From positions 30,753,501 to 30,817,500 of the forward strand of contig CM066998.1 in NCBI GenBank assembly GCA_033977485.1: a stretch of DNA of 64,000 bases. The letters are read 5' to 3'. The notes under the pieces are model-generated. The model searched no databases, was not told the origin of the DNA, and saw nothing but the letters and a program-made list of their open reading frames with translations. The translations under genes and the position numbers were made by a program. The stretch is from Hydrangea macrophylla. Lineage: Eukaryota > Streptophyta > Magnoliopsida > Cornales > Hydrangeaceae. Positions 16,209 through 43,085 of the stretch are shown here, piece by piece; position 1 is the first letter of the stretch, and the number at the start of each line of letters is the position of its first letter.

Positions 16209-17873
16209 TGTAGACACCCCGATTTTGACCAAATGTCAAATCCAGGGATTGGTTGCCTCTAAAAGACCGATGACGATGATGACCGAGGAAATTCGAAGTT
16301 TTTCCAAAGAATTCCAATTCTTCAAAGATTCCTTAAATCAAGTTTCAAAAATCAAAAGAGAAATTGGGTGTTTGGGAGAAACCCGAATATTGAAGAACGT
16401 ATGAGAAAGTCAGTCTGGGGATTTATCCTGGAAAAAAAATAGAAAAGAAAAAAGAGAAAATGAAAAGAAGTTTTGCAAAGAAAAGAGAAAAGGATAGAAG
16501 AAAGAAAGAAAGAAATAAAATGATATATTAAAGTATATACTATGCATATAGATGTATCATAGTGAAGTACATTACAAATACAAGTACACTAGTATATACT
16601 TTGATAATAATTAAGTTTGTGTTAATATATATTTTGAAAATTAAAAAGAATGTAAGAATTTTGTTAGCCACGGCACGCGGCGAAGCCGGCGGCACTCACT
16701 GAGTGCCGTGTCGGCATTCACTGAGTGCCGCAGGCAAGTCGTCGAGTGCCGCATGCTGTAACAGACTGCTTTTCTCACATGTTCTAGAAGAAAACTTTGC
16801 ACATGGGTTTACCCGAATTTACCCATTTAACCTTGAAATGTTGGTCTATATAAACAGATCTGCATCTCCATTTTTGGGACTTTTCTCACTTAACCTTTGA
16901 ATCAAATAGAGATACACATGAGAAATATATAGAATTGAGAGAGAAGAAAAGTATTTCTTGAAGAATAGTTGAAGAATTTGAAGATTTTTGGAAGAACTTC
17001 ACAAGAGATAGAAGAAATCCTTGAGGTCATAGAGGTAACCTCTCAATCCTTGGTAGAAATTGGTATAATTCAATCACAAGTTCATAACTCTAGGACTTTT
17101 ATATCTATAGAGACTTGTATATCTATAGAGATGCTATGGCTCCAACTAATCAAAATGAATTCATAGTTTTATCAACTCTTCCTCTACTTGATAGATCCAA
17201 GCTAGAGATTTATGATTGATTATTTGATGTCATATTATTGTGTGAAGCGTGTGGACTAACCCTTGGTTTGTAGCGCTTTGGAGGTATGACTTCTCATCTC
17301 TTTTCTAGTTTATTTCATTTGTTGATTTCATTGATTTTCGACTCCATGCACGACACCTTAGCTTAGGTCTTGCCTTATGTGTATATGTGATTAGAGACAT
17401 TTTTCCTAGGATTTCTATTTTTTGTGTGCATTGCACGTTTAAATTCACAACTGGATCCCGGGTAAGTTTTCTAGTTTCCTATTTGCACATCATTTTGCTT
17501 GCTACTTGAAATACGTGATTTATGAATGAAATTTTATCGTTAGCAATCTTACACCCTTTTTAATATGCTTTTGTAATGTATATGTATATATGTATTAATA
17601 GAGGGCATGCTTAGATTAATAATTCGATTAAAAAGGATGTTGAGTAGAGGCCTATCATGTGATAGGATGAGAGGGGGTGTTTTAGTCCGCAGGGCTCCTT
17701 CCCCTCTCATTCCATAATCCCCGGACCCAGATTATCTTTGGTTTCGCAAAAGATCAGTTTGCTTTCAAAATGGTTTCTTAATTTTCCTTTTAAAAATTAA
17801 GTAGCGACTCGTCTTTGAATTTGAAAAGAAATTGTTTTGAAATCAAAAGTGGGCCCAAATGCTGGTATCCACA
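16209..17873 (+). mobile_element. 5' LTR of the Tat-lineage Ty3/gypsy element
   Basis: The 1665-bp LTR starts TGTAGACACCCC and ends GGTATCCACA. The flanking 5-mer CGTAG (16204-16208) matches CATAG (58724-58728) after the 3' LTR, apart from one CpG-type transition. The TATA box TATATAAA is at about 16847-16854. A palindrome cluster lies at 16671-16752. Close relatives of both LTR ends are found at 45090-45283 and 57960-58723. Confidence 0.9.
16671..16752 (+). promoter_or_regulatory. Palindrome module upstream of the LTR TATA box
   Basis: It contains GGCACTCACTGAGTGCC (16691-16707; 8-bp perfect arms around one base), GGCATTCACTGAGTGCC (16713-16729) and a final half-site TCGAGTGCCGC (16742-16752). 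The TATA box lies about 95 bp further on. The same order, palindromes first and TCGAGTGCCG last before the TATA box, is found upstream of the two antisense genes of this element. Confidence 0.75.
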
Positions 17874-17875
17874 AT

Positions 17876-17893
17876 CTGGCGACTCTGCTGGGG
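17876..17893 (+). other. Primer-binding site, tRNA-Arg-like
   Basis: CTGGCGACTCTGCTGGGG lies two bases after the 5' LTR. Sites of this type, complementary to the 3' end of a tRNA-Arg, are characteristic of Tat/Ogre elements. Confidence 0.7.
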
Positions 17894-19500
17894 ATCTAAC
17901 CCAAGTTTTGCAGGCCAGAATTTTTGATTTTGGGTTCACTCGAGGATTAGATTTGAAAGCATCCTTTTAATCGAATTAATTAATTTTGTGTGCCCGTTGC
18001 ATTGCACTTGCATGTTTTGCCAGTTGATTGCACGGAACTATGATCTTGGAGGCTCCGGGCAACCCAATCAATCAAGCCATCATGGGGTCGTGTGATCACC
18101 CTTGATCTCGTACCATGTGTTGGTATATAAAGCATCCTATCGGGTGTGTGTCAAGGGTCCCTTATTTGATCAAAACCCGGCTTTTGCATAGTAGCTTCCA
18201 TAGAACCTTTCAAATCTTAGGAAATCAATTCTTGATTAGGATTTATGTGCTAGGGAGTTTTGTATGCCCGAAAGGGATTGTTTAAGATGATGACGATGCT
18301 TGCTTGATGAAAGATGTGTAACCCTTTAATCACCTTTTAGCAATTCCTTCTCATGTCCCACGATATTTGGGAACATGCTGAATGTTGATTATAAGATTAC
18401 ATCTCTTACATCTTGTTAGCTAAGTATCATTGACCTTGTATGCATCCAAATCCATGAAAAGTGCAATAATTATCCGATCATGTGATCCTCCTATCCAAAG
18501 AATCTTAAATCCATTTTTAAAAGCAAACGACTTTTGCCATCTTTATTCCAAAACATTCAATTGCTCTTTCAAAAAAAAAAAAAAAAGAAAAGAAAAAAAA
18601 GAAAAACCTTTTCGGAGTTTACTTTTTGAATAAAATTTCAAATCAACCCTTGTTGAGGTATATTTTCACATTCTCATCTTTGAAGGAAGAACCCGAAAAT
18701 CTTGGGAATAATTTTTATGACAAATGCTTTTCAAATGGATTTCAAAGCAAAATTTTGACCCAATCACTTTGGTTGAGAAATATAATCCAAAATTCTTGAG
18801 AATTGTATTGAGAGATCTCCGTAATTAAAGAAATGCTTTTCAAATAAATTTTAAAGCAAAATCATCTTTTGTTGAGAAATGTTGTTGCCTTTAAAGGAAA
18901 GCTTCTTAAGAATTTGAAAGATCCCATCATCTAGGGAAATGCTTGTCAAATAAATTTCAAAATTTCTAAAATTTTCAAAACTATGAAGGGGTGAAGAGGA
19001 TCACAATGAAACGAGAAATTAGCACACTTGACATGGGTGAGGATTTTATGTGCTTATATGTTTATATGTTAGGATTAGAATTTTCCTTTCTTTTGCATAT
19101 AGAGTAGGCACACACGCACACATGCATTTGCATCCGCATGATATATGAGCCATTCATGAAAATTTCTTAAAAAGCATTAGCAAGCAAAATAACAAAATTT
19201 CTTTGATTTTGAAATTTAAAAAATTAAATAAAAAAAATAAAATATGTTTGTAGGAAAAGATAGAATCAGCTACAAACACAGTTTGGTACAGGGACTCCAC
19301 TACGAGGTTAGTCAGAAGAGAGACGGCACAAGAAGCAAACACAAGAGAGATAGCAAAATTGAGGGCCATAGTGGAACAGCAAGCAGGTCAGATGACAAGG
19401 ATAATGACCATGATGGAAACACTAGTATGACAGCCGCCAGTTGTTGATCCTCCTCCACCTGTTAGGGAGGATGATTGGTTTGATGATCCAGAAAGAGCTG
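17894..19500 (+). other. Tat element leader, no clear gene
   Basis: Long non-coding stretch between the primer-binding site and gag. It is AT-rich with an A-rich tract at about 18570-18606 and repeated TTTCAAA/AATTTCAAAGC phrases. Tat/Ogre elements often carry a long leader or an extra first frame here, but I see no credible protein. Confidence 0.5.
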
Positions 19501-19502
19501 AA

Positions 19503-20500: not shown

Positions 20501-20510
20501 ATGCTTAAGG

Positions 20511-22170
20511 TTGAGACATGAAATCCAGGATCTGATAGATAAGAAGGTAATATCTGAACCACCCACCAACCCATCGAACATCACCAAGAATCCATTACCA
20601 AATCATCATGCGATACCGCCACCCGAAGTTTACTATTTAGAAAGTGAAGGAAGCTCTTTTGACCCATCAACATTGATCACTAAGTTGGGATGTCCGAAGA
20701 AGATTTACCAGATGCCGGGAGATTTGAACATCTGCACTTTGGATAGACTGGCAGATAGAAACAAGGGGAAAGTGATAGAAATGCCTCCTGCTATGGATTG
20801 GTGGGCACCCGAAGATGACATCTCTATTTGGTATAAAGGGGATGACAGTCAGGACATCAATAAAGTTAAGGAGGATCTTTGGTATGAAAGCGAGAAAGAA
20901 GAAAAAAAATCCAGAAGTCACTAAAGCACAAAATGATCTTTGGTTTAAAGAAGAGGTCAGTCATTTAACGCGATCAGGAAGGCATTTCAAACCATATGAA
21001 CTTGAGGAAGACCACTCAGGCCAAGAATTAGATAAGGGGAAAGGGAAACTGAATGAGGAAGAAGAGGAAGATAGGGTCTTGAGACAGATAAAGAAGACAC
21101 AAGCGAATATCACTATTTGGGGATTATCAATTTCTTCCAAGTGTCATAGATAAGCGGTTGTCGATGCTCTTAATCAATTTGATGTCTCCTTCAACATCAC
21201 CCCAGAGGATCTCATCGGCATGATCAACAAGAGCTCGACTCTCGCCATCTCCTTTACTGAAGCTAACTTACCTCCTGGAGGACCTGCTCATAATGAGCCA
21301 TTGTACATTACCGTCGAGTGTCTAGGAAATTCTTTGCCCACTTGTCTCGTTGACAACAGGTGTGAATTGAATGTATGCCCATTCCGAATAGCCAAAAGGA
21401 TGGGGCTTGATGAATCTACGTTTATACCATCAGAGCAAAAGGTAAGGGCCTATGACAATACTCAGCGAGCGATTATGGGGATCATTTTTTTGAATCTCTC
21501 TATTGGGACCGGGGAAAAGGAGGCAGAGTTCCAGATTATCGATATTCCTGCATCTTTCAATCTACTTCTGGGAAGGCCATGGCTGGACAGTTTGGGTGCC
21601 ATCCTGTCAACCATCCATCAGAAAGTCAAGTACATTTGGAAGGGTAAAGTTTGTGATGTTCTAGGGGATAGTTGGATACATGCGTCTGGAGCTTCATCTA
21701 GTGCCCCAGTTTTGGAAGTACAAATGCAAGAGGAAGAGACAAGCTTGGGCGGGTTCGAATTCATTAATGTGATAGAAGATAGCAAGACAAAAGACTTTTT
21801 ACCGCTTTACTTTGATCAGTATGCAAGTCCGTTGGTAGCCGAAATTATGAGAAAAATGGGATTCTTCCCAGGGATGGGTCTGGGTAAGAAGCACCAAGGA
21901 TTGCCCGAGTTTTCAAACTTTGTCACGCAAGCGCATACCCGTGGTTTGGGATATCAACCAACAAGGGAAGAAATGAAGAAAAAGAAGAAATCGGCCGATG
22001 CGCCAATAGAACTATACTCAAAGACTCTCAATGGATACTTTGTCAAAGAAGGAGAGGATTTTCCATTTTGCGGTTTTCCGGAGCTGTGGTTGGATAAAGT
22101 TGAAAAATGTATGAAGCCGGGATTTGAGATTTTCTTTGCATATGACTTCTCTGACTATAAGGACCCTTAA
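20511..22170 (+). pseudogene. Tat linker and aspartic protease with G-patch domain
   Basis: 20511-20924 matches the region between gag and protease in Tat elements (HEIQDLIDKKVI, TKNPLPNH). It is frameshifted near 20900. The protease frame (21220-22170) shows TVECLGNSLPTCLVDN-, LNVCP, and a FNLLLGRPWLD flap/C-terminal motif. The catalytic triplet reads D-N-R where Asp-x-Gly is expected, so the enzyme is probably dead. A G-patch-like motif follows (MRKMGFFPGMGLGK), as is usual after the protease in this lineage. The frame ends at 22170. Confidence 0.8.
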
Positions 22171-24280: not shown

Positions 24281-26381
24281 CCCACCCCATTTGTAATACC
24301 TATAATTTTCTTTTCTTTAATAAATATCAGTTTTTGAATTTTTGCATTTGCCTGTCTAATTTTAAATTATTATTTTAATATTGTGATGATTTTTACGTAT
24401 CATAAGATTATTGACTAAACTGTAGTAACCATACCGACTCGACTGTAATTAGAATTAACTTAGTCCCGTACCTGGACCCGGACATTAGAAATAATACCCG
24501 TTTGCATGTAAATCGAGATCGACACGCATAATGAGGAACTTATGCATGCAAATTGAGAAAGTAGTACACAACCCAAAGTGGACCCCACCTGTCCGGCAAT
24601 ATGGCAGCCCCATGTGCCACTCCTTATACTTGTCATCTCCTCCCATGACATTTATCCACATATTGGACATGTGTCTTTGCATGAACTCATGCAATTGACA
24701 CCTAGCCATGCCAATCTCCTATATATCATGCACATACACACAATTGAGACACTTTTGTCTCTACAATCTGCACATAATTGAGAGGGAGAGAGAGCTAGAC
24801 TTATAGCTCCATGGAAGAATAGAAGAAAGAGGAAGTCCATCCTTGAAGTTTGAAGATTCAAGCTGCACTAAGCTTCAACCAATATCAAGCTTAAATTTCA
24901 AGCTTTGGTGAGTATTCTAACTCACTTTAGAACCTATATAGTATGTAGTAATGTTTAGCAAGTGTTTGATGTTGTTTTTTGAAGTTCTATGCAACATGCA
25001 AGTCAAATCTTCAAATCTGGGAAGCAGAAACATCCAGCAGAATGTTGTTTAGTAAAATGAACATTTTGAGCAGTTCAAAAATGGGAATGAGGGTAGGTTT
25101 TTTTGTAGAGAAATCTAACTCATTTATCTACAAATAACTCTTCTATAGCTTAGTCTAAATATTACTCCTTCATAGGTGAAATGTATGTACAATGTAGTAT
25201 TATCAATCTGAGAAGTAGAAACTTCCACCAGAATGTTGTTTAGAAAAATGAACATTTTGAGCCGTGCAAAAATGGTAATGAGGCTAGGTTTTGTGGAGAA
25301 AGCTAACTAATTTATCTAAAAATAACTCTTCTTAAGCTCAGTCTAGAAATTAATACTTCATAGGTGAAATGCACATGCAACATAGTACTATAAATTTGGG
25401 ACAGAGCAGTCCGAAAATATAGAAATGTCTAAGTAAAATAAATATTTTGAGCAGCTCAAAAATGTACATGAGGCTAGATTTTTTTTTGTACATGAAGCTA
25501 ATCCAATTATCTACAATGTTTTAGTTTTGAGTTTGATCTACAAATCAATTTATCATGCCCAAATAAATTATATCAATTCAGTCGACATAGTAAAATTATT
25601 TCCTGACAGATTGTACAACTACTTGTATGATGTGTTTATTGATGATGATTGTTTTCCGATACCTGTGTGGTTATGAATATCTTGTACTATGGTAGTGCTA
25701 TCGAGTAGATGAGTATGTTAAGGGTCTATGTAGTTTTGTTAGTTTTATAGACATGATAATGAACCCATGCATGTATTTTACAAGTATAACTAAGCTGATG
25801 CTTTGAAATCTTAACATAAGCTTGAATTAGTTGTACATAGACCCATGCTTGGATATATATATATGGAGTATCTACACTACTGTAGACATGTTATACTACT
25901 CATAGGAGTATATAGTTTGTGTACCTTGAGCTTAATTGATTGTACATTGCATAAAAATAGAGGATTTAAGAATCTGGCGCCAGAAATCGATTTATGGGAG
26001 AAATCGATTTCTGGAAAGTTTTTCTGGGAAAAGTTTCCTTAAGGAACTATTAAAGCCGTAAGCTGAACGACGACGTTAATTCTAACTTCATGGGTATATT
26101 ATGACATAAAACAGAACAACGGACGTAGGAGCGCAACCTTGTATGTGTAAATGAAAGTTATTAACAAATTAAACCACAGAATGAGTGATGCGAATGCGGT
26201 CAAGGATGTAAGGATTGATTGTGCTTGGTTAAGAACAGCGTATGTCAAGGATAAGTGTTGGATAGGTAAACCAATCCGCGGAGGCCGGGATAGTGAGCAA
26301 AGGATGTGTTTGATGGGTTGTAAGGTGATGAGTATTGTGTATCCTTTCGGGTCTTCGTGACGAAAGGGGGTACGGTTAACA

Positions 26382-27332
26382 CTTCGGTTCTTCATGATGG
26401 CAAAGGGATGTTTCTTAGAGTGAAGACTCCTTTCAATTCTTAGTGATGGAATGGATGTTCTTGCACTCCATAAACACTTCGGTTCTTCGTGATGGCAAAG
26501 TGGTGTTTCTTAGAGTGAAGACTCCTTTCGGTTCTTAGTGATGGAATGGATGTTCTTGCACTCTGTAAACACTTCGGTTCTTCGTGATGGTGAAGTGGTG
26601 TTTCTTAAAGTGAAGACTCCTTTCGGTTCTTAGTGATGGAATGGATGTTCTTGCCTTCTGTAACCACTTCGGTTCTTCGTGATGGCGAAGTGGTGTTTCT
26701 TAGAGTGAAGACTCCTTTAGGTTCTTAGTGATGGAATGGATGTTCTTGCACTCCGTAAACGTTTCGGTTCTTCATGATGGCGAAGTGGTGTTTCTTAGAG
26801 TGAAGACTCCTTTCGGTTCTTAGTGATGGAATGGATGTCCTTGCACTCCGTAAACGCTTCGACTCTTCGTGATGGTGAAGTGATGTTTCTTAAAGTGAAG
26901 ACTCCTTTCGGTTCTTAGTGATGGAATGGATGTTCTTGCACTCCGTAAACGCTTCGGTTCTTCGTGATGGTGAAGTGGTGTTTCTTAGAGTGAAGACTCC
27001 TTTTGGTTCTTAGTGATGGAATGGATGTCCTTGTACTCCGTAAACGCTTCGGTTCTTCATGATGGTGAAATGGTGTTTCTTAGAGTGACGACTCCTTTCA
27101 GTTCTTAGTGATGGAATGGATGTTCTTGCACTCCATAAATGCTTCGGTTATTCGTGATGGTAAAGTGGTGTTTCTTAGAGTGAAGACTCTTTTCGGTTCT
27201 TAGTGATGGAATGGATGTTCTTGCACTCTGTAAACGCTTCGGTTCTTCGTGACGGCGAAGTGGTGTTTCTTAGAGTGAAGACTTCTTTCGGTTCTTCGAG
27301 ATGGAATGGATATTCTTCCACTCCCTAACATT
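26382..27332. repeat. 95-bp tandem repeat, 10 copies (5' LTR)
   Basis: Units contain CTTCGGTTCTTCGTGATGG, a GTGGTGTTTCTTAGAGTGAAG core and TGATGGAATGGATGTTCTTG. Starts at 26382, 26477, 26572 and 26667 show the 95-bp period. The last start is near 27329. The period is not a multiple of three and no protein is implied. Confidence 0.95.
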
Positions 27333-27700
27333 TCAGTTCTTCGTGACGAGGTGTTTGTTAAAAGATGTTTCGGTTGGTGGAAGGTGTTTTGGTAAATGAA
27401 AGATGGTTTAGTTAGTAAGAGATGTTTTAGGTTAGTAAATGATGTCTGTTGTTGGCAACAGATGATAGGGGCGTTAAGAATGTCGAGAAGAGTTTTCTCA
27501 GTTGGACGTTTTCTTTTCGAATACGTGATCGGGTATATTGGTAGTTATAACTCGACGGTGAGAATGCAAAGATTTTTAAAGACGTGTTAAAAAAGTTATA
27601 AGGGTATCTTTGTTGTGCTTTACTATATACGTTCCATTTGATTTTGTTTTCTCACTCAGCTTTCATAAGCTGACGACGTTCTTGTCGCTGGACATTCCCA

Positions 27701-27802
27701 TGTCCAGCTTATCCAGGTCACCAGAACACAGGCTATGGAGCTACTCAAGAATATAATGTGGAAGAAGATTATACTGAAGAGGATTATGGTTATGCGTGTT
27801 AG
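27701..27802 (+). other. LTR micro reading frame, acidic Tyr-rich tail (family B, 5' LTR)
   Basis: Thirty-three codons plus TAG. The start reads C-P-A-Y-P-G-H-Q, then GYG, then NVEEDYTEEDYGYAC-stop. The 3' LTR copy (about 35386-35487) keeps frame and stop and ends YAS. It lies about 40 bp after an acceptor-like CAG. Compare 10201-10350 and 48672-48743. No in-frame ATG is seen in this copy, so it would need an upstream exon. Confidence 0.5.
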
Positions 27803-28115
27803 GAAGAAGACCAGTAGTTTCCCTTTGTAAATATTTTTGTTGTAATCAGAAGACTTATCATATTTTTGTAATAGTTTTTGTAAGGCCCAGAGCCATAAGA
27901 CTCTTATGTATTTAATTAGCTAGTACCGTTGTAGCCTTTCATTGTAACATATTCCAGTAGTAGATGATGCTTTTACCCTTTTGTCATAGCATTTAGTTAT
28001 TATTATTTTGGTCATGGACAATTCGGTACTTCCACCAGTCACGTGCCTCAGGGTCCAAGATGAAAATTTTAAAATTTTCCATATTTTGGCTACGCCGGGG
28101 CGTGACAGGTATTTT

Positions 28116-28127
28116 TGGTATCAGAGC
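28116..28127 (+). other. Primer-binding site, initiator Met-tRNA
   Basis: TGGTATCAGAGC, eight bases after the 5' LTR. It is the standard plant Ty3/gypsy chromovirus priming site. Confidence 0.85.
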
Positions 28128-28230: not shown

Positions 28231-31200
28231 ATGGAGCCGTACATAATACTAGACGTCTTCGAAGGATATAAGGTTAGCCGTTAGACGATAGATGCTTAGT
28301 TTATGTGAATGGCTTCCTTAGATATTTTGTTAGAACGACTTGTTATATCGACAAGATGTTTAGGCTTTGACGAATTTCCTGAGACAAATCTCGGAACAGT
28401 CACCTTAGCCTAGAGTCTGGAAAGACTAAGGATAAGATACTTCATCTCCTTAAATTAAATGTTAGTTGAGTGGTTCCACTTATAAGTTAGATAACGTCAT
28501 AACACGAAACTTAGAAATAAAAATTTCCTAGTCGTATATAGAAGTACAAATAGGCCTTGTGGATAGATAGACACCTTATATGCTTGGATTTCTCTATATT
28601 GCCTAGATAGTATGCGATGTACGAAATAAGATAAGTTGGGATAAACTTATGGACACCAACTCATACATAAGAACACGCGAATCTTTGCAACGTCTGCTAC
28701 ACTTGTAATCTACCAGGACACATGCACAAAGATTGTCAAACTCCCAATATCTATCGCCGACCAAATTTCAATTGCTAATACAACAATAAGAAGGGTCATC
28801 TTCTCAAGGACTATTGGATGCTGAGGGCACACAACGATAATGCTTTTCTACAGCAAGGAGCACATGAGATATTGACTTAATTAAATACCCGAGTCAATGG
28901 AAAAGACGCAAGAGTGGAACGTACCTTCGACAAACCGAACGACCTCATAGACTGCTAACATCGACCACGTTCAATCACAATGAACGACTCGCACTGGGAA
29001 CATTAGTAAAGATGAGTACTGCATTCCACCTTCAAGCCAACGATCAGATAGCACATGGCCTACCGAGAAAAGGCACGTTTTGGGTTCATAACATCGACGT
29101 TCCATCAACACGCTAAAGAAATGCATCTCTGACCCTAGTGCACATTACAAATTAAGACCATATAAGGCTGAGTAATTAGATCCATCTCTCTGATTTAACT
29201 CCTTTTGGGTACACCCATTATTTTTCTATCATTGGTTGCGTTAGATCAATTATTCTTATGATGAACCTTAGGACGTCCTTTATTGTTCCACTACTTGACA
29301 GTTATTCAATGTCCCCTCTGATTTCACTTAACAAGATTTTGGATCATTCTGATCAATGTTAAATCCAATTGTGAATTCATTTCCTTTCTAATGCTATAAG
29401 TCACCTCTTTGGGCTTATCCTCAAGTAAATCGATTCCAACAATTCATTTATAAACCACTCACTGTAAGTCATTTGGACTTATGATCTGTTAAATTAATCT
29501 GTATGAATCGTTTAGACTGTCAACTGTTTGACCAACTCTTGCAAGTGCATATATCCCTTGACATTATTGCAAAGGAGCTCTCTGTATTTGTTCAACTAAG
29601 GAACTCAAGCATATTGTACCCCTTTGTAAACTAGTCTTCATTTCCCTTCATTTCACGAATTCTTCTTAACTTTTATCATTAAGACTTCACCTAAATTATT
29701 GGCTCATAAGACAAGAATTCTTATGTCCTACCTGGAAGGCCTTACGCCTTTAGTCATTGCATTACTTTGATTGTCCTATAGTAATCATCTGATGATCATT
29801 CTCAGATACTCATTCTATACATCGTGATCCTACAAGTGAGAAATCACGAATCTCTTCGTTTCTAACTCAGTACACTATGAGTATTCATTTTGTTATGAAT
29901 TCAACTCCTTATAAGTGAATTAAATCCTACTCCAACTACCAGTAACACCTTATATGCTATGTATTAATTAATGCACAGGGAAATTGCTTAATGGCTTGTG
30001 TCATCGCCTACGATGCTGAAACTCCACAACGATTTCATGTTGACACGTAAAGGAACTCAATCACAACAACACACTTAAGAGGACGCTATGACCCCTACAA
30101 GTTATAAAAGACAATCTTGAGACCAACTAGGCATCTCAACCATCACATCAAGAAGCTGGGAGGTAAGAATCTTGCCGATTAAAGACGCAAAAAAAAAAAA
30201 AAAAACCAGTGACACCAACAATTACTATAATGCAGTCCACAATCACTAAAGGAAACTCTAGGTATATCAAGAACAAGTACCCCTTCCCAGGATAGACGAC
30301 TTATTTGACCAACTCTAAGGAACGAAAACCTTTTCAAAGATCGATATACGATCAGGTTACCACCAGTTACTTGTTAGATCGGGAGACATACCGAAAATGA
30401 CTTTCAGAACAAGACATGGGTATTATAAATTCTTAGTTATGCCTTTTGGATTAACTAATGCCCTAGCGGTATTCATGGATTTGATGAATCGAGTGTTCAG
30501 ACCCTTCTTAAATTAATTCATCATTGTGTTCATCGACGACATCCTTATTTACTCAAAGAGTGAAGAAGAACACAAGGAACATGTACAGATTGCACTCCAG
30601 ACACTTGGAGAGAATCATCTCTATGCCAAGTTTAGTAAGTGTGAATTTTGGTTAAAAGAAGTTAAATTCTTGGGAGATGTAGTTTCACAAAATGGAATTT
30701 CAATGGACTCAACCAAGATGGACGCAGTTTCTAGTTGGAATAGACCAACCAATGCATCAGAAGTACGAAAATTCCTCAGATTGGCCAGATACTACAGGAG
30801 ATTCGTGAAAAGATCCTAAAGGATTTCGTCTCCTATAACCGGACTAACAAAGAAGAATTCGAAGTTTGAATGGAAAGATAAGCACGAACGCGCCTTTCAA
30901 GAACTAAAGGACTAGGATGTGTACTTATGTAGAATGGTCAGGTGATCGCTTATGGATCCAGGTAATTAAAGCCACATAAATTGATCTATCCTACACACGA
31001 CCCAAAATTGGCTGCAATTGTCTTTGCACTTAAGGTTTGGAGACACTATCTCTATGGAGAGAAGTCGCAAAATACGTAGCCAAATACCCTACTTGCTAGC
31101 AAGTCAAGGAGGAACACCAATGACCTCCAGGATTACTACAAAACCTCTACCAGTCCCTGATTGGAAAAGGGAGCATATCATCATGGATTTTGTTGTGGGA

Positions 31201-31945
31201 TTGCCAAGATCCCAACAGAACCATAATGCTATTTGGGTAGTCATTGATCAACTGATCAAATCTGCCCATTTTATTGCCTACAACATGACCTATCCTGTCA
31301 AGAAAATGAGTCGACTATACCTGCAACAGGTTGTGCGGTCGCATGGAGTACTGGTATCAATCGTATCAAATTGAGATTCAAGATTCACCGCAGCATTTTG
31401 GGAGTGTCTTCAGAAAGTAATGGGAATGCCTTTGACGTTGAGTTTCACATTTCATCCACAAACTGACGGATAAAAGGAAAGGATGAAAGCAGCGCAAAGC
31501 AGATATAAGAACCTAGAATTTGAAGGCGGAGATCATGTGTATCTGAAAGTTTCCCCGGTTTGAGGCGTTGTAAGGTTTGGACAGAAGAAGGGAAAACTAT
31601 CGCCGCGTTGGACCGTTTAAAATTATGGATCGCGTGGGAAAAGTCGCCTACAGGTTGGCGTTACCACCAAAGATGTTGGGGGTTCATAACGTCTTCCATG
31701 TAAGCATGCTGAGGAAATTTCTTCATAACCCGGCACACGAGATTGATTTCAGAGATATCGAAGTAAACGACAATGCTACGTTCATTGAAGGACCTGTAAA
31801 GATTCTAGATCATGGAATCAAGAAGTTGAGAAACAAAGAGATTCCACTGGTAAAGATTCAGTGCAAACACCATAACGAAGGAGAAGCCTCTTGGGAGCTG
31901 GAATCTGAGATGTGGGAGAAAACTTCTTTTCTATTTAATGACTAG
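28231..31945 (+). pseudogene. Tekay element 1 internal region, gag-pol remnants
   Basis: Heavily decayed. A remnant of a pre-gag frame starts at 28231 (M-E-P). A gag zinc knuckle C-x2-C-x4-H-x4-C survives at 28695-28736. Stretch 28740-30240 shows no coding signal that I can follow. The RT is readable from about 30262 ([15 protein letters not shown]) through a [11 protein letters not shown] active site to 30819, with stops. Most of RNase H and the N-terminal integrase are deleted. Integrase core pieces (31140-31375) and the C-terminal part with GPFKIMDRVGKVAYRL and a chromodomain (about 31795-31945) remain. The element cannot be autonomous. Confidence 0.85.
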
Positions 31946-31991
31946 ATAGTCCAGATTTCAAGGACTAAATCCTATAATAGGTGGTAGGAGA

Positions 31992-34900
31992 TGTAATACA
32001 TGTAATTTTCTTTTCTTTAATAAATATCAGTTTTCGAATTTTTGCATTTGACTGTCTAATTTTAAATTATTATTTTAATATTGTGACGATTTTGACGTAT
32101 CATAAGATTACTGACTAGACTGTAGTAACCATACCAACTCGACTGTAATTAGAATTAACTTAGTCCCGTACCTGGACCCAGACATTAGAAATAATACCCG
32201 TCTGCACGTAAACTGAGATCGACACGCATAATAAGGAACTTATGCACGCAAACCGAGAAAGTAGCATGCAACCCAAAGTGGGCCCCACTTGGCCGGCCAC
32301 ATGGCAGCCCCATGTGCCACTCCTTACACTTGTCATCTCCTCCTATGACATTTGTCCACATATTGGACATGTGTCTTTGCATGAACTCATGTAATTGACA
32401 CCTAGCCATGCCAATCTCCTATATATCATGCACATACACACAATTGAGACACTTTTGTCTCTACAATCTGCATATAATTGAGAGGGAGAGAGAGCTGGAG
32501 TTATAGCTCCATGGAAGAATAGAAGAAAGAGGAAGTCTATCCTTGTAGTTTGAAGATTCAAGCTTCACTAAGCTTCAACCAATATCAAGCTTAAATTTTA
32601 AGCTTTGGTGAGTATTCTAACTCACTTTAGAACCTAGATAGTATGTAGTAATGTTTAGCAAGTGTTTGATGTTGTATTTTGAGGTTCTATGCAACATGCA
32701 AGTCAAATCTGGGAAGCAGAAACTTCCAGTAGAATATTGTTTAGTAAAATGAACATTTTGAGCAGTTCTAAAATGGTAATGAGGCTAGGTTTTTTGTAGA
32801 GAAAGCTAACTTATTTATCTATAAATAACTCTTCTATAACTTAGTCTAAATATCAATCCTTCATAGGTGAAATGTGTGTACAACGTAGTATTAGCAATCT
32901 GAGAAGCAGAAACTTCCAGCAGAATGTTGTTTAGCAAAATGAACATTTTGAGCAGCTCAAAAATGGAAATGAGGCTAGGTTTTTTTGTGAAGAAAGCTAA
33001 CTCATTTATCTACAAATAGCTCTTCAGTCTAGAAATCAATACTTCATAGGTGAAATGCACATGCAACGCAGTACTATAAATCTGGGATAGAGCAGTCCAA
33101 AAATATAAAAATATCTGAGTAAAATAAATATTTTGAGCAGCTCAAAAATGTAATTAAAGCTAGATTTTTTTTGTACACAAAGCTAATCCAATTATCTACA
33201 ATGTTCTAGTTTTGAGTTTGATCTACAAATTAATTTATCATGCCCAAATAAATCATATCAATTCAGTCGACATAATAAAATTAATTCCTGGCAGATTGTA
33301 CAACTACTTATATGATGTGTTTATTGATGATGCTTGTTCTCTGATACCTGTGTGGTTATGAATATCTTGTGCTATGGTAGTGCTATCGAGTAAATGAGTA
33401 TGTTAAGGGTCTATGTAGTTTTGTTAGTTTTACAGACATGATAATGAACCCATGCATGTATTTTACAAGTATTACCAAGATGATGCTTTGAAATCTTAAC
33501 ATAAGCTTGAATTAGTTGTACATAGACCCATGCTTGGATATATATATATGGAGTATTTACACTACTATAGACATGTTATACTATTTATAGGAGTATATAG
33601 TTTACGTACCCTGAGCTTAAATGATTGTACATTGAATAAAAATAGAGGATTTGAGAATCTGGCACCAGAAATTGATTTATGGGAGAAACTGGTTTCTGGG
33701 AAATTTTTCTGGGAAAAGTTTCCTTAAGGAACTATTAAAGCCGTAAGCTGAACAACAATGTTAATTCTGACTTCATGGGTCTATTATGACATAAAACAGA
33801 ACAATGGACGTAGGAATGCAACCGTGTATGTGTAAATGAAAGTTATTAACAAATTAAACCACAGAACGAGTGACACGAATGCGGTCAAGGATATGTAAGG
33901 ATTGATTGTGCTTGGTTAAGAGCAGCGTATGTCAAGGATAAGTGTTGGATAGATAAACCAATCCACAGAGGCCAGGATAGTGAGCAAAAGATGTGTTTGA
34001 TAGGTTGTGATGTGATGAGTATTGTGTATCCTTTTGGGTCTTCATGACGAAAGGGGGTACGGGTAACGCTTCGATTCTTTGTGTTGACAAAGTGATGTTT
34101 CTTAGAGTGAAGACTCCTTTCGATTCTTAGTGATGGAATGGATGTTCTTGCACTCTGTAAACACTTCGATTCTTCGTGATGGCAAAGTGGTGTTTCTTAG
34201 AGTGAAGACTCCTTTCGCTTCTTAGTGATGGAATGGATGTTCTTGCACTCCGTAAACACTTCAGTTCTTTATGATGGCGAAGTGGTGTTTCTTAGAGTGA
34301 AGACTCCTTTCAGTTCTTTGTGATGGAATGGATGTTCTTGCACTCCATAAACACTTCAGTTCTTCATGATGGCGAAGTGGTATTTCTTAGAGTGAAGACT
34401 CCTTTCGGTTCTTAGTGATGGAATGGATGTTCTTGTACTCTGTAATCGTTTTAGTTTTTCAGGATAGGGAAGTGGTGTTTCTTAGAGTGAAGACTCTTTT
34501 TGGTTCTAAGTGATGGAATGGATGTCCTTGCACTCCGTAAACGCTTCGGTTCTTCGTGCTAGTGAAGTGGTGCTTCTTAGAGTGAAGACTCCTTTCGATT
34601 CTTAGTGATGGAATGGATGTTCTTGCACTCCGTAAACGCTTCGGTTCTTCGTGATGGCGAAGTGGTGTTTGTTAGAGTGAAGACTCCTTTCGGTTCTTAG
34701 TGATGGAATGGATGTCCTTGCACTTAGTAAACACTTCAGTTCTTCGTGATGGTGAAGTGGTGTTTATTAGAGTGAAGACTCCTTTTGGTTCTTTCTGATG
34801 GAATGGATGTTCTTGCACTCCGTAAACGCTTCGGTTCTTCGTGATGGCGAAGTGGTGTTTCTTAGAGTGAAGATTCCTTTCGGTTCTTAGTGATGGAATG

Positions 34901-35794
34901 GATGTTCTTGCACTCCGTAAACGCTTCAGTTCTTTGTGATGGCGAAGTGGTGTTTCTTAGAGTGAAGACTCCTTTCAGTTCTTCATGATGGAATGGATAT
35001 TCTTGCACTCCCTAACACTTCAGTTCTTCGTGACTAGGTGGTTGTTAAAAGATGTTTCGGTTGGTGGAAGGTGTATTGGTAAATAAAAGATGGTTTAGTT
35101 AGTAAGAGATGTTTTGGGTCAGTAAATGATGTCGGATGTTGGCAATAGATGATAGTGGCGTTAAGAATGTCGAGAGGAGTTTTCTTAGTTGGACGTTTTC
35201 TTTTCGAATACATGGTCGGGTGTATTGGTGGTTATAACTCGACTGTGAGAACGCAAAGATCTTAAAAGACGTGTTAAAAAAGTATTAAGGGTATCTTTGT
35301 TGTGCTTAACTACATACGTTCCATTTGATTTAGCTTTCTCACTCAGCTTTCATAAGCTGACGACGTTCATGTCGCTAGACATTCCCATGTCCAGCTTATC
35401 CAGGTCACAAGAACACAGGCTATGGAGCTACTCAAGAATATAACATGGAAGAAGATTATACTGAAGAGGATTATGGTTATGCGAGTTAGGAAGAAGACCA
35501 GTAGTTTATCTTTGTAAATATTTTTGTTGTAATCAGAAGACTTATCATATTTTTGTAATAGTTTTTGTAAGGCCCAGAGCCATACGACTCTTATGTATTT
35601 AATTAGCCAGTACCATTGTAGCCTTTCATTGTAACATATTCCAGTAGTAGATGATGCTTTTACCCTTTTGTCATAGCATTTAGTTATTATTATTTTGGTC
35701 ATGGACAATTAGGCACTTCCACCAGTCACGTGCCTCAGGGTCCAAGATGAAAATTTTAAATTTTTCCATATTTTGGCTACGCCGGGGCGTGATA
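31992..35794 (+). mobile_element. 3' LTR of Tekay-type element 1
   Basis: 3803 bp, starting TGTAATACA after a purine-rich tract (GGTGGTAGGAGA). It ends GGGGCGTGATA, the final CA having become TA. It carries the same landmarks as the 5' LTR: a donor-like GTGAGT at 32608, ten 95-bp repeats (34069-35018), an acceptor at 35346, the hairpin, and the Tyr-rich frame. The target duplication CCATT follows at 35795-35799, after which the host Tat reading frame resumes. Confidence 0.9.
34069..35018. repeat. 95-bp tandem repeat, 10 copies (3' LTR)
   Basis: Same unit and same copy number as the array in the 5' LTR. Single copies differ by scattered substitutions. Confidence 0.95.
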
Positions 35795-35799
35795 CCATT

Positions 35800-37457
35800 A
35801 GCCGTTAAACTTAAGTATAACTCAACCAACAACACGGCAGAATACGAAGCATGCAAAATTGGGATGGAAGCAGCCTTGGCCTTAAAAATTGAGAAGATTG
35901 ATGTTTTTGGGGACTCGAATGTGATAATATCGCAAGTGAGGGGTAATTAGAGAATAAAGCATGAGAGATTCAGACCTTACCCTGAGTACCTGGATAGCCT
36001 AAAAGTGCAGTTAGAAAAATCTCATTCTATTACCTTCCTCGTGAGGAAAACCAACTAGCTGATTCTTTAGCAACCTTGGCCTCGATGATCCAAATCCCTA
36101 TAGGAGTTACCATGATTCCCCTGTCCATAGAAGAGAGTACCCAGCCCTCATTCAAGACAATCACAGTCATTGAAGGGAGAGAAGAGATAGAAGTACCGTG
36201 GTATATGGATGTTTGGAGTTTCATTGAGAAAGAAAAGTACCCTGAAGGGGCGTCAGAAAAGGACAAGAAGGCTATCCGGAGGTTTTCTGCTCAGTTTGTG
36301 ATTTATGCGGGAAAGTTATGGACAAAGTCCTATACCGGTTCTAACCTAGAATGTCTATATGGAAGGGAAGCGAGAAAAATGATGGAAGAAGTACATGAAG
36401 GAGTCTGCGGGCCCCACATGAATGGACACATGTTGGCCAAAAAGATAATTCGATAGGGATACTATTGGACAACTCTGGATAAGGATTGTTGTGAGTATGT
36501 GAGAAATTGTCATAAATGTCAGATCCATGCAAATCTTATGCATACCCCACCTTCCCAACTTTACAACATGACCACCCCTGGCCGTTCTCTATGTGGGGTA
36601 TTGATACCATTGGGGAAGCAGTCCCGAAAGCTTCAAATGGACACCGGTACATAATCGTGGTAATAGATTATTTCACCAAATGGGTGGAGGCGGCATCGTA
36701 TGCAACTCTAAAAGCCAAGGATGTGGCAAATTTTATCGAGAAGAACATAGTCTGCAGATATGGGGTGCCGAATGAGCTTATTTTTGACCATGGGAGCCAC
36801 TTTCAGGGAGAAGTTATCCCACTCTTAGAGAAGTATAGGATTACCCACCACCAATCCTCACTATATAGACCCCAGACGAATGGAGCAGTAGAAGCCGCAA
36901 ACAAGAATGTAAAGACAATCCTGGGAAAGATGATAGATACATACAGGGATTGGCATGCGAAGTTACCATTTTCTTTATGGGGATACCGAACTTCCGTAAA
37001 AAATTCAACAGGGGCTACTCTATATTCATTGGTTTATGGGATAGAAGTTGTTCTCCCAGTTGAGGTCGAAATACCATCTTTGAAAGTCTTGGCGGAGTGT
37101 GAGGTAACCGAACTTGAGTGGCTGCAGGGGAGATATGAGGAATTGATGCTATTAGATGAGAAGAGATTGGCTGCTATAAATCATACTCGGGGATATCAGA
37201 AAAGGATAGCGCGTGCTTTCAACAAAAAGGTTCACCCAAGGAAGCTTGCTGAGGGTGACCTAGTCCTCAAAGAACTTAAAACGCCCATTTATGACTCCAG
37301 AGGAAAATTCAAACCTAACTGGGTCGGACCATATATCATCAAGACACTCCTCTCCGGAGGAGCTGCCTACCTCATGGACCTGGATGAAGTTGAGTTTAAA
37401 AACCAATCAACCTCAATCGCCTCAAGAAATATTTTGCTTAAGACCTTGTCATTTTAA
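35800..37457 (+). pseudogene. Tat second RNase H (3' part) and integrase
   Basis: It resumes in frame after the Tekay insertion: TAEYEACKIGMEAAL and DVFGDSNVIISQV mark the archaeal-type RNase H of Tat elements. A stop lies at 35948, and a frameshifted spacer follows. Integrase has an HHCC zinc finger split by TAG at 36454 and by a shift near 36530. The catalytic core shows Asp in GIDTIG, Asp in LIFDHGSHFQ and Glu in NGAVEAANKN. The C-terminal GPYII module (about 37325) ends at 37457. There is no chromodomain, as expected for Tat and unlike Tekay. Confidence 0.85.
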
Positions 37458-38099: not shown

Positions 38100-39209
38100 T
38101 TTTTTCCCTTTTTGTTTGTCTAGAAGCAATTTCATAACCAAAGTCTGAATCTCAAAAAGGTACTCGATAGTGGGAACAACTGAAGAAGGGACCCTCCGGA
38201 AAGGAGCTGACACTCTGTCATGCCAAGCCTCGGCAAATAATCTCATGGTAGAAGGGTGCAGAGTGAAGCTCCTCGAAAAATCTGCAGTAATAATGTCTGG
38301 GATATCCTGAAGCAAACCAAACTGGCGAACCACCCGTCCGGGGATGTAAAAAGTGGTAGCATGTAGACCAGGTAGCCAAACCCCCGGACGCCCGGGAAGC
38401 CGCACAGTGACAGAGCAGTAAGTCCATCGGGGGCACACCCAACGAATGTCCTCACAACATAGGCTCTGAAGTGAAGTAAGCCAGCCGTCAGCCGTGTAAT
38501 AAAGGAAATGAACATCCAGATGATCATAGGGAAGCAGTCTTCTAGCAGGAGAGTGAGCGAAGAGGACTAAATGCTCGAGAAGCCAGATCTGCAAAACATG
38601 AGGTGACCCCAAAAGCAACATCGATCTGGTGCTCTGTGCATGATCCAAACCTAGTAAGGTTTCTCCTAGAACAAGCATGATAGCACTCCGCATCTCTCGA
38701 AGACCACAAATAATAGGGATAAGGATGTCGGAGGAAGACTGGAATAGGAAATGGGAGAGCATAGCCAAAGAAAGGGCACTGCGTCCGATGATTTGATGCC
38801 CTCCGTCATCCGGATTGCCAATGGGAGCATAAATAGAAGAAAGGTAGTAAAAGTCAATTCATCGATCACGAACAAAAGAGTTGGTGGCACCTCGGGAAAT
38901 ACGAAGAAGAGCCACTAGATCTTGGATGTACCCTGCCTGTATCTGGGGGATGATCAAATCAGCATAAGGGTCGGTATGGAGAATGGCACTAAATTCCTTG
39001 ATGAGTGGACAAACCTCCGTATGGCCAAATCGGAAGACATGAAAAGAGGGGTCCAAACATATGATAGCAGCTCGGAGTAAGCTCTCGTCTAGAGCCATAC
39101 GGCGGAATGCAAAGAGGTCTATCAATCTGTAACACTCAAAGTTGAGTCGGTCAATGTCGGAAAGAGAATCCATCCACGGGTATAGAATAATAGAACTTAT
39201 GGGAGCCAT
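38100..39209 (-). pseudogene. Antisense extra gene 2 of the Tat element, DUF7745-like
   Basis: The minus-strand ATG at 39209 starts M-A-P-I-S-S. The frame shows a CLDPSFHVFRFGHTEVCPL segment and a long Leu-rich helical region (GSPHVLQIWLLEHLVLFAH, then HLDVHFLYYTADG). One in-frame TGA at 38859-38861, most simply a CGA-to-TGA change, interrupts an otherwise continuous frame down to a Lys-rich end near 38100; the open frame goes on to 37887. The pattern matches the plant DUF7745/plant-mobile-domain-like family found in many transposons; its function is unknown. It has its own promoter-like region (39297-39424). Confidence 0.65.
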
Positions 39210-39296: not shown

Positions 39297-39424
39297 CACT
39301 TTATATAAGAAAATGGCACAAACCGGCACTCGATGAAAAACAGCGGCACTCACTGAGTGCCGGCCGGCAGTCACTGAGTGCCGCACGGTAGTCAGTGAGT
39401 GTCGGTCAGCCTCTCTGAGTGCCG
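39297..39424 (-). promoter_or_regulatory. Promoter module of antisense gene 2
   Basis: Minus-strand order: degenerate GGCACTCAGAGAGG, GACACTCACTGACTACC, GGCACTCAGTGACTGCC and the perfect GGCACTCAGTGAGTGCC (39345-39361). Then comes the half-site TCGAGTGCCGG (about 39323-39333) and, 13 or so bases on, a TATA box TCTTATATAAAG (39299-39310). The start codon is about 90 bp further. The arrangement is the same as upstream of antisense gene 1 and, with a longer spacer, in the LTR. Confidence 0.75.
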
Positions 39425-39734: not shown

Positions 39735-42709
39735 AGAAAAAGAGATCGGCTATCCTCGTTGGTGACGAGAATTTCTTCTAGGTGCCTGCAGAGCTGCTTG
39801 ACTTCCCCCAACTCCGCCATCTCCGCCATCTCCACCATCACCACCATCCCCACCGTCACAGCCTTGGCCACTACCGCCAGCACCTCTTTGATAACCACCG
39901 CCTTGACCTAACTGAAACTCTTGAATTTGCCTCCTCAAGGCAGCAAGCTTGGCCTCCTAAAAAGCCAAAATAAAATAAAGAATAAGTGAAATAAAAAAAG
40001 TGAAAAGAAGAAGAAGAAAATGTATAAAAATGGTGATACCATAGCTCTGGCCTGAAGATCAGCAGTGGCCCTTGCTCCATTAGCCTGAAAAAGAGTTTGG
40101 ATACAGTAGTCAGTATAATGATAAAATTTGAGTTGTGAAAAAGTAATAAGAAGGTTGTTTCCAGAAAGAGATGTACCCTCCATTCGCGTCCATGAGCCCA
40201 ATGCTGGACAATATGTGCATATGATAAACCCTCCTCTGCATAGTCTCTGGGGACTGTATCATATTGTAGGGGGGATGGACGGGACATTCTGAGTATAAGG
40301 GGTCAGCTGATACATGGTCTCCTGGCCCATATAGACCATGGGAACATTCCAGTTCCACTGTGGGAGAGCTGGAGGGTCGGTAACCCCAGGAATAGGCTGT
40401 AAATGAGAATTTGAATATTAATAAAAGTGGTCGCGTATCTAAAAAAAGAGAGGAAAAGAAAAGCAAAAGTAAAAAAAATCAAAGTCTCTTACTCGAGTGA
40501 CATCCATAAGAGGAAAATTATGCATGAGAGAATTTAATCTGAAGGCAGGATAATCGTCTGGACCATCCAAGAAGTTTGCAATGCCCTCCTTGTCTAGAGC
40601 AGCCACCAGGTCATCATGATCCAAAGTCTCCGTACTCCTCATAGTCGCCGGGGGAGCTCTCGACACATAAAAAGCCGGGGCTACAAGGGATTGCTAGGTC
40701 ACCCTCTCACCAAGGTACAACTCTCGGCATGCCTCGCCTACCATCAGGGTCCTCATCCTGGAAAAACCTACATTAGCTTGGATTTCTTCGCTGGCCTCTG
40801 GAAGGGTCGCCTCTCAAGGATTCCACACCATATGAACCTCACGTAAGTTGATAAGGAGGTTTCTGTAGCCTATGAAGTCGTGGGCCCCGACCTTTCGGCC
40901 TGTCGCTCCCTTCCTCCATTTCAAACCCTGAGGCATTATCGTAGCCTCACCTTCCCGGGTACTGGGAGCCCTCATGCGAAGGTATTCATGAGACCATATT
41001 TGCAAAAGAAAAAATAGTGAATTCGGTTTTTGAAATAAAATCGGAGGAGATGGATAAAATAAAAGTGTGATTGAAATATAATAATAAAGTTTTACCTCCC
41101 AAGCTCTCCAGTACTCGCAAGTGGAAGGAGAGTTTCCCCTAGAGACCTCACTCATGTGGTTGTAAAGAGTAGCCAGCCCTACCCCTCCCCAGTTATACTG
41201 AGTGATATGGTCGATGTTTGCAAGAGAGGCCAGGTACCCGAGGTTGATCCTATCCCCCTTTGTGCTCATCAGCGAGCAACCCAGCACATACATGATAAAG
41301 GCCCTAGCCATCTAGTCGTCGATAAAGACTTGACCCTTGAAGGTATCCAGGAACCATTTTGCGGGCACTATGAACTCTCCTGGGTGAGCCCCGAGCAGGT
41401 CAATAATCTCCTCATGGCGAGTCTGGAGATCGTCATAGAGACCAACCGAAAGGCCACCGAAGGGGATGCCAGTGATCATGGCGAAATCTAGAGGAGTCAT
41501 CGTCATCTCCCTGAAAGGCATATGGTATGTGTTTGTTGTGTCCCACCATCGTTCCGCCAGAGCCAAGATGTGGGTCATATAGTTCGAACTCTTCTCTAAA
41601 AGTAGTGAAAAAAGCCCAAATCCAGCATTGTTGACCAGGGTTCTAACCTCATCGGAAAGCTTCTCGTACCATCTCCGGCCGTGAGCCAGGCTCCCATGGC
41701 CTTTGAGGACGAATTCCGGAGTCTGCAAGAAAAGGAAAAACGAAAAACAAAATAAGAGGAAAAAAGAAAATAAATGATTTTTAGAATCTAAACAGCTCGA
41801 TTTTTTTGTAAAAGGAAAAATAAGTGGTGATCTACGAGTCTAAGCAACTCAAATAAAGTTTTGATTTCTGGGTCTAAGCGACTCGATTATTCAAAAAAAA
41901 AAAGAGAAAAAGTGAGTGATGATTTTCAAGTCTAAGCGACTCATTTTTTTTAAGAAAAAAAAGAAAATTCTTTTGAGTCAAAGCGACTCGTTGATTTGAA
42001 AATTAGAAAATTCTTGAGTCTAAGCGACTCGTTGTTTTGAAAATAAGAAAATTCTTTTGAGTCTAAGCGACTCGTTGATTTGAAAATAAGAAAATTCTTT
42101 TGAGTCTAAGCGACTCGTTGATTTGAAAATAAGAAAATTCTTTTGAGTCTAAGCGACTCGTTGATTTGAAAATAAGAAAATTTTCGAGTCTAAGCGACTC
42201 GTTATTGAGAGGAAAAATAAGGTTCTTGGTTCTGCAACAATAGGCTTAAAGTTCAATAAAAGCAAGGTCTACATGAAATTTGAGTGCTTCACAGGGTCGG
42301 TACGCCCCTTCATTAGCAGTGAACAAATGGAATAAAGGAATTTGTGAGCATGGAAAATAAATGAATCCAAATAAGGGTGGTAAGCGAAAAGCCCAATACC
42401 AAGCATTGAACCCCAAATCATGACAAGAAAATCAATTCAGGAAGAGGGGATATCACAAATAAGTTTTAATACATTCAAATACACAAAGTCATGGGGTCAC
42501 TCATACATGCATTGTTCATCATGGATTGGATTGCATTGTATTATTTTATCATAAGCATAAAAAAGGGGGGTTTGGGAGTATACCAATCTGTTGAAGGCTC
42601 GTATTGAGATATGCGCCCTGGGGTTGGCAAGTATAACTGATGAGTTATGGCCAGGGTGGGGCTTATACTTCTTTTTGGGGGGACCATGGGACCCTGAACC
42701 ACTAGCCAT
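39735..42709 (-). pseudogene. Antisense extra gene 1 of the Tat element, plant mobile domain (PMD) protein, multi-exon
   Basis: The ATG at 42709 opens exon 1 (to 42584), which starts MASGSGSHGPPKKKYKPH. A GTATAC donor follows. Exon 2 runs from 41722 (after TTTTCTTGCAG) to 41096 (donor GTAAAA), both in phase 0. It holds the PMD hallmarks: GFGLFSLL, a RWWDTTNTYHMPFREMTMTP segment, LDFAMITGIPFGG, and YNWGGVGLATLYNHM. Exon 3 starts at 40999 (IWSHEYLRMRAP), but its acceptor reads AA instead of AG. Later coding pieces include VYMGQETMYQLTPYTQNV (about 40285-40345) and a Gly/Asp-repeat tail ending at 39735. An in-frame TAG lies at 41312-41314. PMD proteins occur as host silencing/development factors (MAIN, MAIL) and inside transposons. 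This copy is inactive. Confidence 0.75.
41835..42210. repeat. GAGTC-TAAGC-GACTC tandem repeat, about 43 bp
   Basis: GAGTCTAAGCGACTC plus an A-rich AAAATAAGAAAATTC spacer is repeated about nine times; neighbouring copies at 42061 and 42104 are 43 bp apart. Each core is an inverted repeat with a 5-base loop. The array lies in the first coding intron of the antisense PMD gene. Confidence 0.9.
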
Positions 42710-42717
42710 TGTAGAAT

Positions 42718-42843
42718 CTACAAGCAAAGGAGGAGAACAGTTAAGATTCATGTGAAAACTTGTGAGGGAAACATAAAAATATTTATGATCTTAAGTATAA
42801 ATCAAGCAAAGATGAAATCTTGATGATTAAGGAGTGAACATAC
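42718..42843 (-). other. Predicted 5' UTR intron of antisense gene 1
   Basis: On the minus strand a donor ACCAAG|GTATG lies at 42843 and an acceptor TTTGCTTGTAG at 42718, nine bases before the ATG. Prediction is by consensus only. Confidence 0.5.
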
Positions 42844-42950
42844 CTTGGTTTTGAGTGGTTCTTGAGTAGAGAATTAAGAGGGAGTGAGATCCTAGAGAGA
42901 AAATCCGAAATAGGGAGAAGAAGAGAATGAAAAAGAAAGGAGAAGAATCA

Positions 42951-43085
42951 AGTTTTATGCACTGCTAGTCAGGCCGGCACTCGATGGAAGGTCACCGGCA
43001 CTCAGTGAGTGCCGCGCGGCATTTGACGGAGTGCCGGCTGGCACTCAGTGAGTGCTGGTGTAGAACACTGAGTGCCGCCGCATGT
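42951..43085 (-). promoter_or_regulatory. Promoter module of antisense gene 1
   Basis: Minus-strand order: GGCACTCAGTG, GCACTCACTGAGTGCC, GGCACTCCGTCAAATGCC, the perfect GGCACTCACTGAGTGCC (42997-43013), then half-site TCGAGTGCCGG (about 42973-42983). A TATA-like GCATAAAACT (42951-42960) follows about 13 bases later. A pyrimidine-rich leader and a 5' UTR intron precede the ATG at 42709. Confidence 0.75.

Follow-up and report, generated by a model that had tools for sequence, protein, structure and literature searches.

Phased palindrome arrays at the long terminal repeat and two antisense accessory promoters of a Ty3/gypsy retrotransposon family in Hydrangea macrophylla

The locus and its palindrome arrays

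The 64-kb stretch of Hydrangea macrophylla DNA analysed here (the window, C17:30753501-30817500) contains a Ty3/gypsy retrotransposon at positions 16209-58723, in which the integrase end of pol (36516-37457, plus strand; PF00665, 4.4e-10) is the sense gene that precedes two antisense accessory genes. Gene 2 (38130-39209, minus strand) encodes a DUF7745/PMD-like protein, and gene 1 (39750-42709, minus strand) is a spliced gene for a PMD protein. One palindromic module is present three times in this element, in the 5' long terminal repeat (LTR) and upstream of each of the two accessory genes. This observation is real, strongly non-random and family-wide.

The module is built from 9-bp arms, CGGCACTCA (left, <) and TGAGTGCCG (right, >), that together form palindromes. 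In the LTR it covers 16671-16751 (plus strand) and consists of a lone left arm at 16671, palindromes at 16690-16708 and 16712-16730, and a lone right arm at 16743-16751. The modules of gene 2 (39324-39424, minus strand) and gene 1 (42975-43077, minus strand) have the layouts < <> <> <> > and < <> <(>) <> >, with a period of about 21 bp. When the three degenerate arms are counted (the lone left arm of the LTR and one gene 2 arm with two mismatches each, one gene 1 arm with three), the order towards the nearest TATA element reads < <> <> > in the LTR and < <> <> <> > at both antisense genes. Arm starts are 10 bp apart within a palindrome and 11-12 bp apart between palindromes, which gives a tandem array of about 21 bp with units every 19-22 bp, or about two helical turns. 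At both ends of the arrays the outer arm is better preserved than the inner one.

All 19 arms with at most one mismatch fall in the three modules (five in the LTR, seven at gene 2, seven at gene 1) and none elsewhere in the window, in agreement with the initial annotation, which had placed a 17-mer palindrome cluster at exactly these three sites. First-order Markov simulations (n=60) yielded a mean of 5.83 arms and a maximum of 11, and not more than 2 per 130 bp as compared to the 7 observed. The 17-mer itself, with up to 3 mismatches allowed, has 13 matches in the window, all at the three sites (mean in shuffled sequences 0.08), and the same holds for the 15 copies of GGCACTC/GAGTGCC in the 64 kb.

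In the LTR, the TATA box TATATAAA (16847-16854, plus strand) lies 95 bases downstream of the module. The TATA box of gene 2, also TATATAAA (39300-39307, minus strand), is 16 bases from the last half-site, and the TATA-like sequence of gene 1, CATAAAAC (42952-42959, minus strand), is 15 bases from it; the distance of about 13 bases given earlier for the antisense genes was thus slightly off. The description of palindromes that come first and a half-site that is nearest to the TATA element still applies, with the addition that the far end also has a lone arm.

Distribution of the arrays in the genome

With one mismatch allowed, the 2.22-Gb genome contains 14,222 matches to the 17-mer on the forward and 13,965 on the reverse strand, counts that overlap since the near-palindromic sequence often matches both strands, whereas the reversed control gave 1 + 1. 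What had been taken for a property of a single retrotransposon is therefore that of a very large family. The first 30 of the 14,222 forward places, along C1, represent 25 separate arrays, or 19 if copies with 95% or more identity across 1,200 bases are counted as one; several of them are LTR pairs or neighbours in the same element. Based on BLAST comparisons with the window and among themselves, on the LTR terminus and on the sequence preceding it, 20 of these arrays were assigned to LTRs, four to gene 2 promoters, one to a gene 1 promoter and none to any other place. The palindromes are thus not scattered over the family, at least in this sample.

The array also outlasts the sequence around it. 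In six of eight tested LTR loci the U3 region could be aligned to that of the window only in its first 19-22 bp, and the array was present nonetheless. One diverged copy, with a PMD exon that is 56% identical, has arrays in the LTR, about 1.2 kb before the PMD exon, and before gene 2, and in the diverged family an array (L047) is found some 300-400 bp inside a minus-strand LTR terminus. The notion that the LTR and the two accessory genes share a module is upheld by this conservation across copies and diverged families, with the same polarity towards the TATA element. A recent move or duplication of the module by the element is, on the other hand, doubtful; since diverged families carry the array at the same three sites, the arrangement looks old. 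In the diverged LTR family (L013-L018, L022-L024, L027) the array mostly takes the form of two clusters, some 200 bp from each other, the larger of which has no TATA[AT]A[AG] within 160 bp.

Such arrays might serve as an enhancer for a dimeric transcription factor of the plant itself, which would give all these promoters tissue- or stress-specific expression. Many plant LTRs borrow sites for host factors, and the stability of the motif across families would suit a slowly changing host protein; promoter position and conservation fit equally well. A host factor is nevertheless rather unlikely in our judgement, as the 25 arrays examined, from the first 30 of 14,222 places, all belong to this element superfamily and the same array stands at the promoters of element genes from a family with a predicted DNA-binding-like fold.

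Loci were also collected independently of the motif. A protein search with the gene 2 N-terminus provided 30 loci from the best 150 of 8,712 candidates, the window copy included. The array was present in all 30, between -242 and -102 from the start codon, and the 3.3 kb of each locus contained no second cluster of at least two arms. For gene 1, a search with the PMD exon provided 20 stretches from the best 150 of 9,646, and 18 copies had the array (17 inside the stretch, one just past it). Five further stretches were sited by their distance from gene 2: one contained an LTR with the array, one a TATA region from which the array was gone, one entered other sequence after 155 bp, and two were without an LTR.

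Two side observations concern the gene 2 loci. A lone right arm is found at +520 from the start codon, inside the reading frame, in ten of the 30. Furthermore, eight gene 2 matches share an E-value of 2.9e-56, 82% identity and a 402-amino-acid frame, which points to a recent expansion of one subfamily.

Conservation of the arrays and accessory genes

Pairwise comparison of 29 distinct gene 2 promoters gave a mean identity of 0.882 in the arms, 0.798 between arms, 0.771 upstream of the array and 0.745 from array to start codon, values that somewhat favour the arms since their columns were picked by match in the window copy. When the 30 gene 2 copies were fitted to a template of ten slots, the outermost arms were within one mismatch in 23 + 23 copies and the inner terminal slots in 0 + 1. 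The gap from half-site to TATA element, in the 20 copies where it could be scored, was 16 bp in 12, 18 bp in four and 36-38 bp in four, the last class being larger by a single 20-bp step, as expected if the terminal arm had been overlooked.

These data bear on the idea that the arrays are functionless minisatellites that slippage or recombination has spread within the element. A tandem repeat finder does detect the 21-bp structure at gene 2, and other tandem arrays near the 3' LTR are reported for related elements in the accessible part of PMC11963269. Slippage would have to be reconciled with a TATA gap of 16-18 bp in 16 of the 20 scored copies, arms that are more conserved than spacers, outer arms that are kept while inner terminal slots are lost, and retention of the array where U3 can no longer be aligned, which makes it a very unlikely cause.

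Each 17-mer could also form a 7-bp stem and all modules would lie inside the genomic RNA, so that hairpins in this transcript, for packaging or as a source of small RNA, may be envisaged. Among 180 distinct units (loci L043-L051, L102 and five overlapping loci were left out of the count), 278 mirrored positions had changed. In 257 of them only one arm was altered, so that the pair was lost in 169 and reduced to a wobble in 88. The other 21 were two-sided, with nine complementary and 12 non-complementary changes, near the one third expected by chance. Mostly one-sided, uncompensated change fits half-sites that are read in DNA and not RNA stems. The polarity of the arrays moreover tracks the antisense TATA elements, and we consider RNA hairpins extremely improbable.

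Past constraint is also evident in both accessory proteins, despite stops in the window copies, from the bias among codon positions. At the start of the gene 2 coding region, identity among the 29 distinct copies is 0.935 at the first two codon positions and 0.717 at the third. In exon 2 of gene 1, two other copies differ from each other at 4, 1 and 21 of 136 positions 1, 2 and 3, and the window copy differs from these two at 20, 10, 48 and at 18, 9, 51 positions, respectively.

The accessory proteins

Gene 1 consists of exon 1 (42584-42709), exon 2 (41096-41722), exon 3 (about 40493-40998) and further exons down to about 39750, with borders assigned by eye. Exon 1 encodes a basic PPKKKYK sequence near the N terminus, and the window copy has stops near 41313, 40815 and 40695. 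The piece at 40814-41311 scores 58.8 bits (7.1e-16) against PMD (PF10536, cut-off 34.9 bits), and another gene 1 piece is just under the cut-off with 34.1 bits. The closest PMD proteins come from Rhododendron and Camellia; the Rhododendron relative is 36% identical over 95% of the query, and a structural model of it shows a tentative match to the fold of DNA-bound VANC21 in a Foldseek search. A sequence-only search of the PDB with the PMD alignment gave a best E-value of 0.098.

Gene 2 in the window has an in-frame stop near 38860, and open copies of 360 amino acids exist elsewhere in the genome. Two open copies score 28.1 and 32.2 bits against DUF7745 (PF24924, cut-off 26 bits), and the broken pieces in the window remain under the cut-off with 16.6 and 12.7 bits. 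A protein search with the window copy, with X at the stop, detected no relative, and one with an alignment of six open copies detected a single relative, from Saponaria. Comparison of the gene 1 and gene 2 alignment profiles was weak (probability 1.4). Viral contigs searched with the reverse transcriptase contained no relative; the 12 single exact matches to the 17-mer in such contigs were taken as chance.

The host element and neighbouring sequences

The 5' LTR (16209-17873, plus strand) is followed by TGGCGACTCTGCTGGGGATC, which we take to be primer-binding-site-like. It is 94.4% identical to 45090-45286 and 95.0% to 57960-58723, the two parts of a 3' LTR (plus strand) that is split by the second of two nested elements. 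The 3' LTR has no equivalent of 16406-17109, module part included. The LTR halves diverge by 5.1% (Jukes-Cantor distance 0.053), which would date the insertion to a few million years ago at typical plant substitution rates.

The domain order PF00078, PF17917, PF00665 (reverse transcriptase, RNase H, integrase), together with the LTR pair, identifies the element as Ty3/gypsy. Antisense open reading frames between pol and the 3' LTR, characteristic of the Retand lineage, are present. The stretch 35998-36453, examined for a second, archaeal-type RNase H before the integrase, gave no Pfam family, in a region that is split by a nested element. The label Tat is therefore a provisional one, which follows the initial annotation, the layout and the antisense genes rather than a reverse transcriptase tree. 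TRP28 (PF04195) was absent from four gene 1 and gene 2 pieces (E up to 1) and two open gene 2 copies (E up to 10), a scan that excluded the later exons of gene 1.

Further tandem arrays lie near gene 1. In its intron 1 (41956-42203), each unit of a 43-bp array holds a second palindrome, GAGTC-TAAGC-GACTC, which may represent another type of operator, and between the gene 1 promoter and the 3' LTR (43313-43659 and 44013-44691) there are two arrays, one of 41-bp units that contain GGAGTC-TGATT-GACTCC palindromes and one of 108-bp units. An open reading frame on the protease side (21154-22170) encodes a G-patch domain (PF01585, 3e-08). Of the nested LTR elements, the older (24292-35792) has ten-copy arrays of a 95-bp unit in each long repeat, and the young one (46076-57642) has repeats, at 46076-49065 and 54654-57642, that are 99.2% identical and hold CGCGAG-rich units. 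Outside the host element, a minus-strand remnant at 12734-13048 is 73% identical to 45109-44801, at the end of the Ty3/gypsy element, and is without a palindrome array, and 60724-64000 is a large inverted repeat with arms that are 80-86% identical and a centre like the U5 part of the LTR.

Possible function of the arrays

We propose that the arrays act as operators to which a single dimeric protein binds, most likely one encoded by the element, and that this protein drives a feedback loop, a proposal that we hold to be somewhat more likely than not. Each palindrome, with 9-bp arms one helical turn apart, would hold a symmetric pair of subunits, and with a repeat of 21 bp, or two turns, these pairs would stack along the same side of the DNA, upstream of the TATA elements at the presumed transcription starts. 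The gene 1 PMD protein, the gene 2 DUF7745 protein, or both, are the most likely binders. By occupying its own two promoters and the LTR, such a protein could close a loop in which the accessory genes and the genomic RNA are switched together. A shared factor from the accessory genes had already been suggested in the initial annotation, and gains from the resemblance of the modelled gene 1 homolog to DNA-bound VANC21, although the binder remains putative.

As to the sign of this control, activation or un-silencing is our first choice because of the analogy with VANC proteins, which act in this way on VANDAL transposons. Repression is conceivable because the host PMD proteins MAIN and MAIL1 are required for transposon silencing, as stated in the accessible parts of PMC5418596 and PMC7156037, and the same binder might thus be a brake by which the PMD/DUF7745 proteins repress the LTR and themselves and limit copy number. 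Half-sites 15-16 bp from a TATA element could block initiation, and phasiRNAs (phased small interfering RNAs) arise from PMD genes of tea (PMC10673657, accessible part). However, VANC21, whose fold is the nearest among DNA-binding proteins, relieves the silencing of its own element (PMC5735166, PMC10398659), and the genome contains the array in very large numbers, so that a brake appears unlikely.

Several observations, besides a sign that could be repression, weigh against the proposed feedback operator. The motif is much alike across families with proteins that are 56-66% identical, whereas VANC targets diverge fast. The structural match concerns a Rhododendron relative, modelled at a mean predicted local distance difference test score (pLDDT) of 63.9, with TM-scores of only 0.31 and 0.47, and a likeness of predicted fold would by itself be no proof of function. 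The model of gene 2 itself is poor (pLDDT 44) and has no meaningful match; VANC21 is not among its matches. The arrays are more uniform than the TATA elements. Of the 30 gene 2 copies, 21 have a TATA box upstream of the start codon; of 17 gene 1 copies with the array, only three have a TATA-like match shortly after it; and of 20 LTR loci scanned, nine have a match 93-127 bp downstream and the other 11 have none within 160 bp. A single arm occurs elsewhere in 14 of the 30 gene 2 loci. Two of the 20 gene 1 copies showed no array within the stretches fetched, and in a small sample, one of the two motif-independent LTRs with a TATA region (L110) lacked it.

Comparison with known systems

The closest parallel is the VANC/VANDAL system of Arabidopsis Mutator-like transposons, in which an element-encoded protein recognizes a short 9-bp motif that is present as tandem repeats in upstream regions and introns (PMC5735166, PMC6419827, PMC10398659). 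VANC21 binds such motifs, arrayed in noncoding parts of its own transposon, according to the accessible part of PMC5735166. The hydrangea family likewise has its motif arrays in noncoding stretches of the element that encodes the putative binder, and the modelled PMD protein shows a tentative match to the VANC21 fold. The carrier in hydrangea is a Ty3/gypsy LTR retrotransposon and not a VANDAL/Mutator-like DNA transposon, the arms are palindromic and phased at 21 bp, the arrays stand at the LTR and two antisense genes, and the motif is stable between families. Un-silencing is a feature of VANC, and would extend to the hydrangea element only by analogy. By the same analogy, this would be an LTR retrotransposon with palindromic, phased sites that work like a VANC-type self-targeting array system. 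A more specific reading, which we put forward tentatively and at somewhat less than an even chance, is that PMD and DUF7745 proteins are VANC-fold binders of phased arrays that un-silence or activate their element, with PMD as an ancestral array reader and MAIN and MAIL1 as its descendants or relatives.

Antisense open reading frames between pol and the 3' LTR are shared with the Tat elements Retand and Grande, and such accessory genes recur in large plant retrotransposons, with a role that is called unknown (PMC7264820, PMC11963269, accessible parts, as for the statements on these elements that follow). Gene23 of Grande is preceded by a promoter of its own, and its product is nuclear (PMC7264820). 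For the Retand frames, which encode TRP28 (PF04195) as opposed to PMD and DUF7745 here, a regulatory function through DNA binding was put forward (PMC11963269). A shared promoter module is not mentioned for either element in those parts of the two papers. PMD domains in gypsy elements were already known (PMC5418596, PMC9289625, accessible parts). Neither a module shared by LTR and accessory promoters nor a link between VANC and PMD was found in the mostly open-access, partly accessible literature; the paper on 9lnj may state the fold relation.

With MAIN and MAIL1 the common feature is that loss of a PMD protein lowers the expression of genes that carry one promoter motif, the DOWN motif; these are host genes, and direct binding of the motif was left open there too (PMC7156037, accessible part). 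The molecular activity of both proteins is still open in the literature, as far as its accessible parts go. A shared operator at the LTR and the accessory genes, in combination with a VANC21-like fold, would give the antisense genes a concrete and testable role in self-regulation. Such a role would link the anti-silencing by VANC in DNA transposons, the PMD accessory genes of retrotransposons and the silencing factors MAIN and MAIL1.
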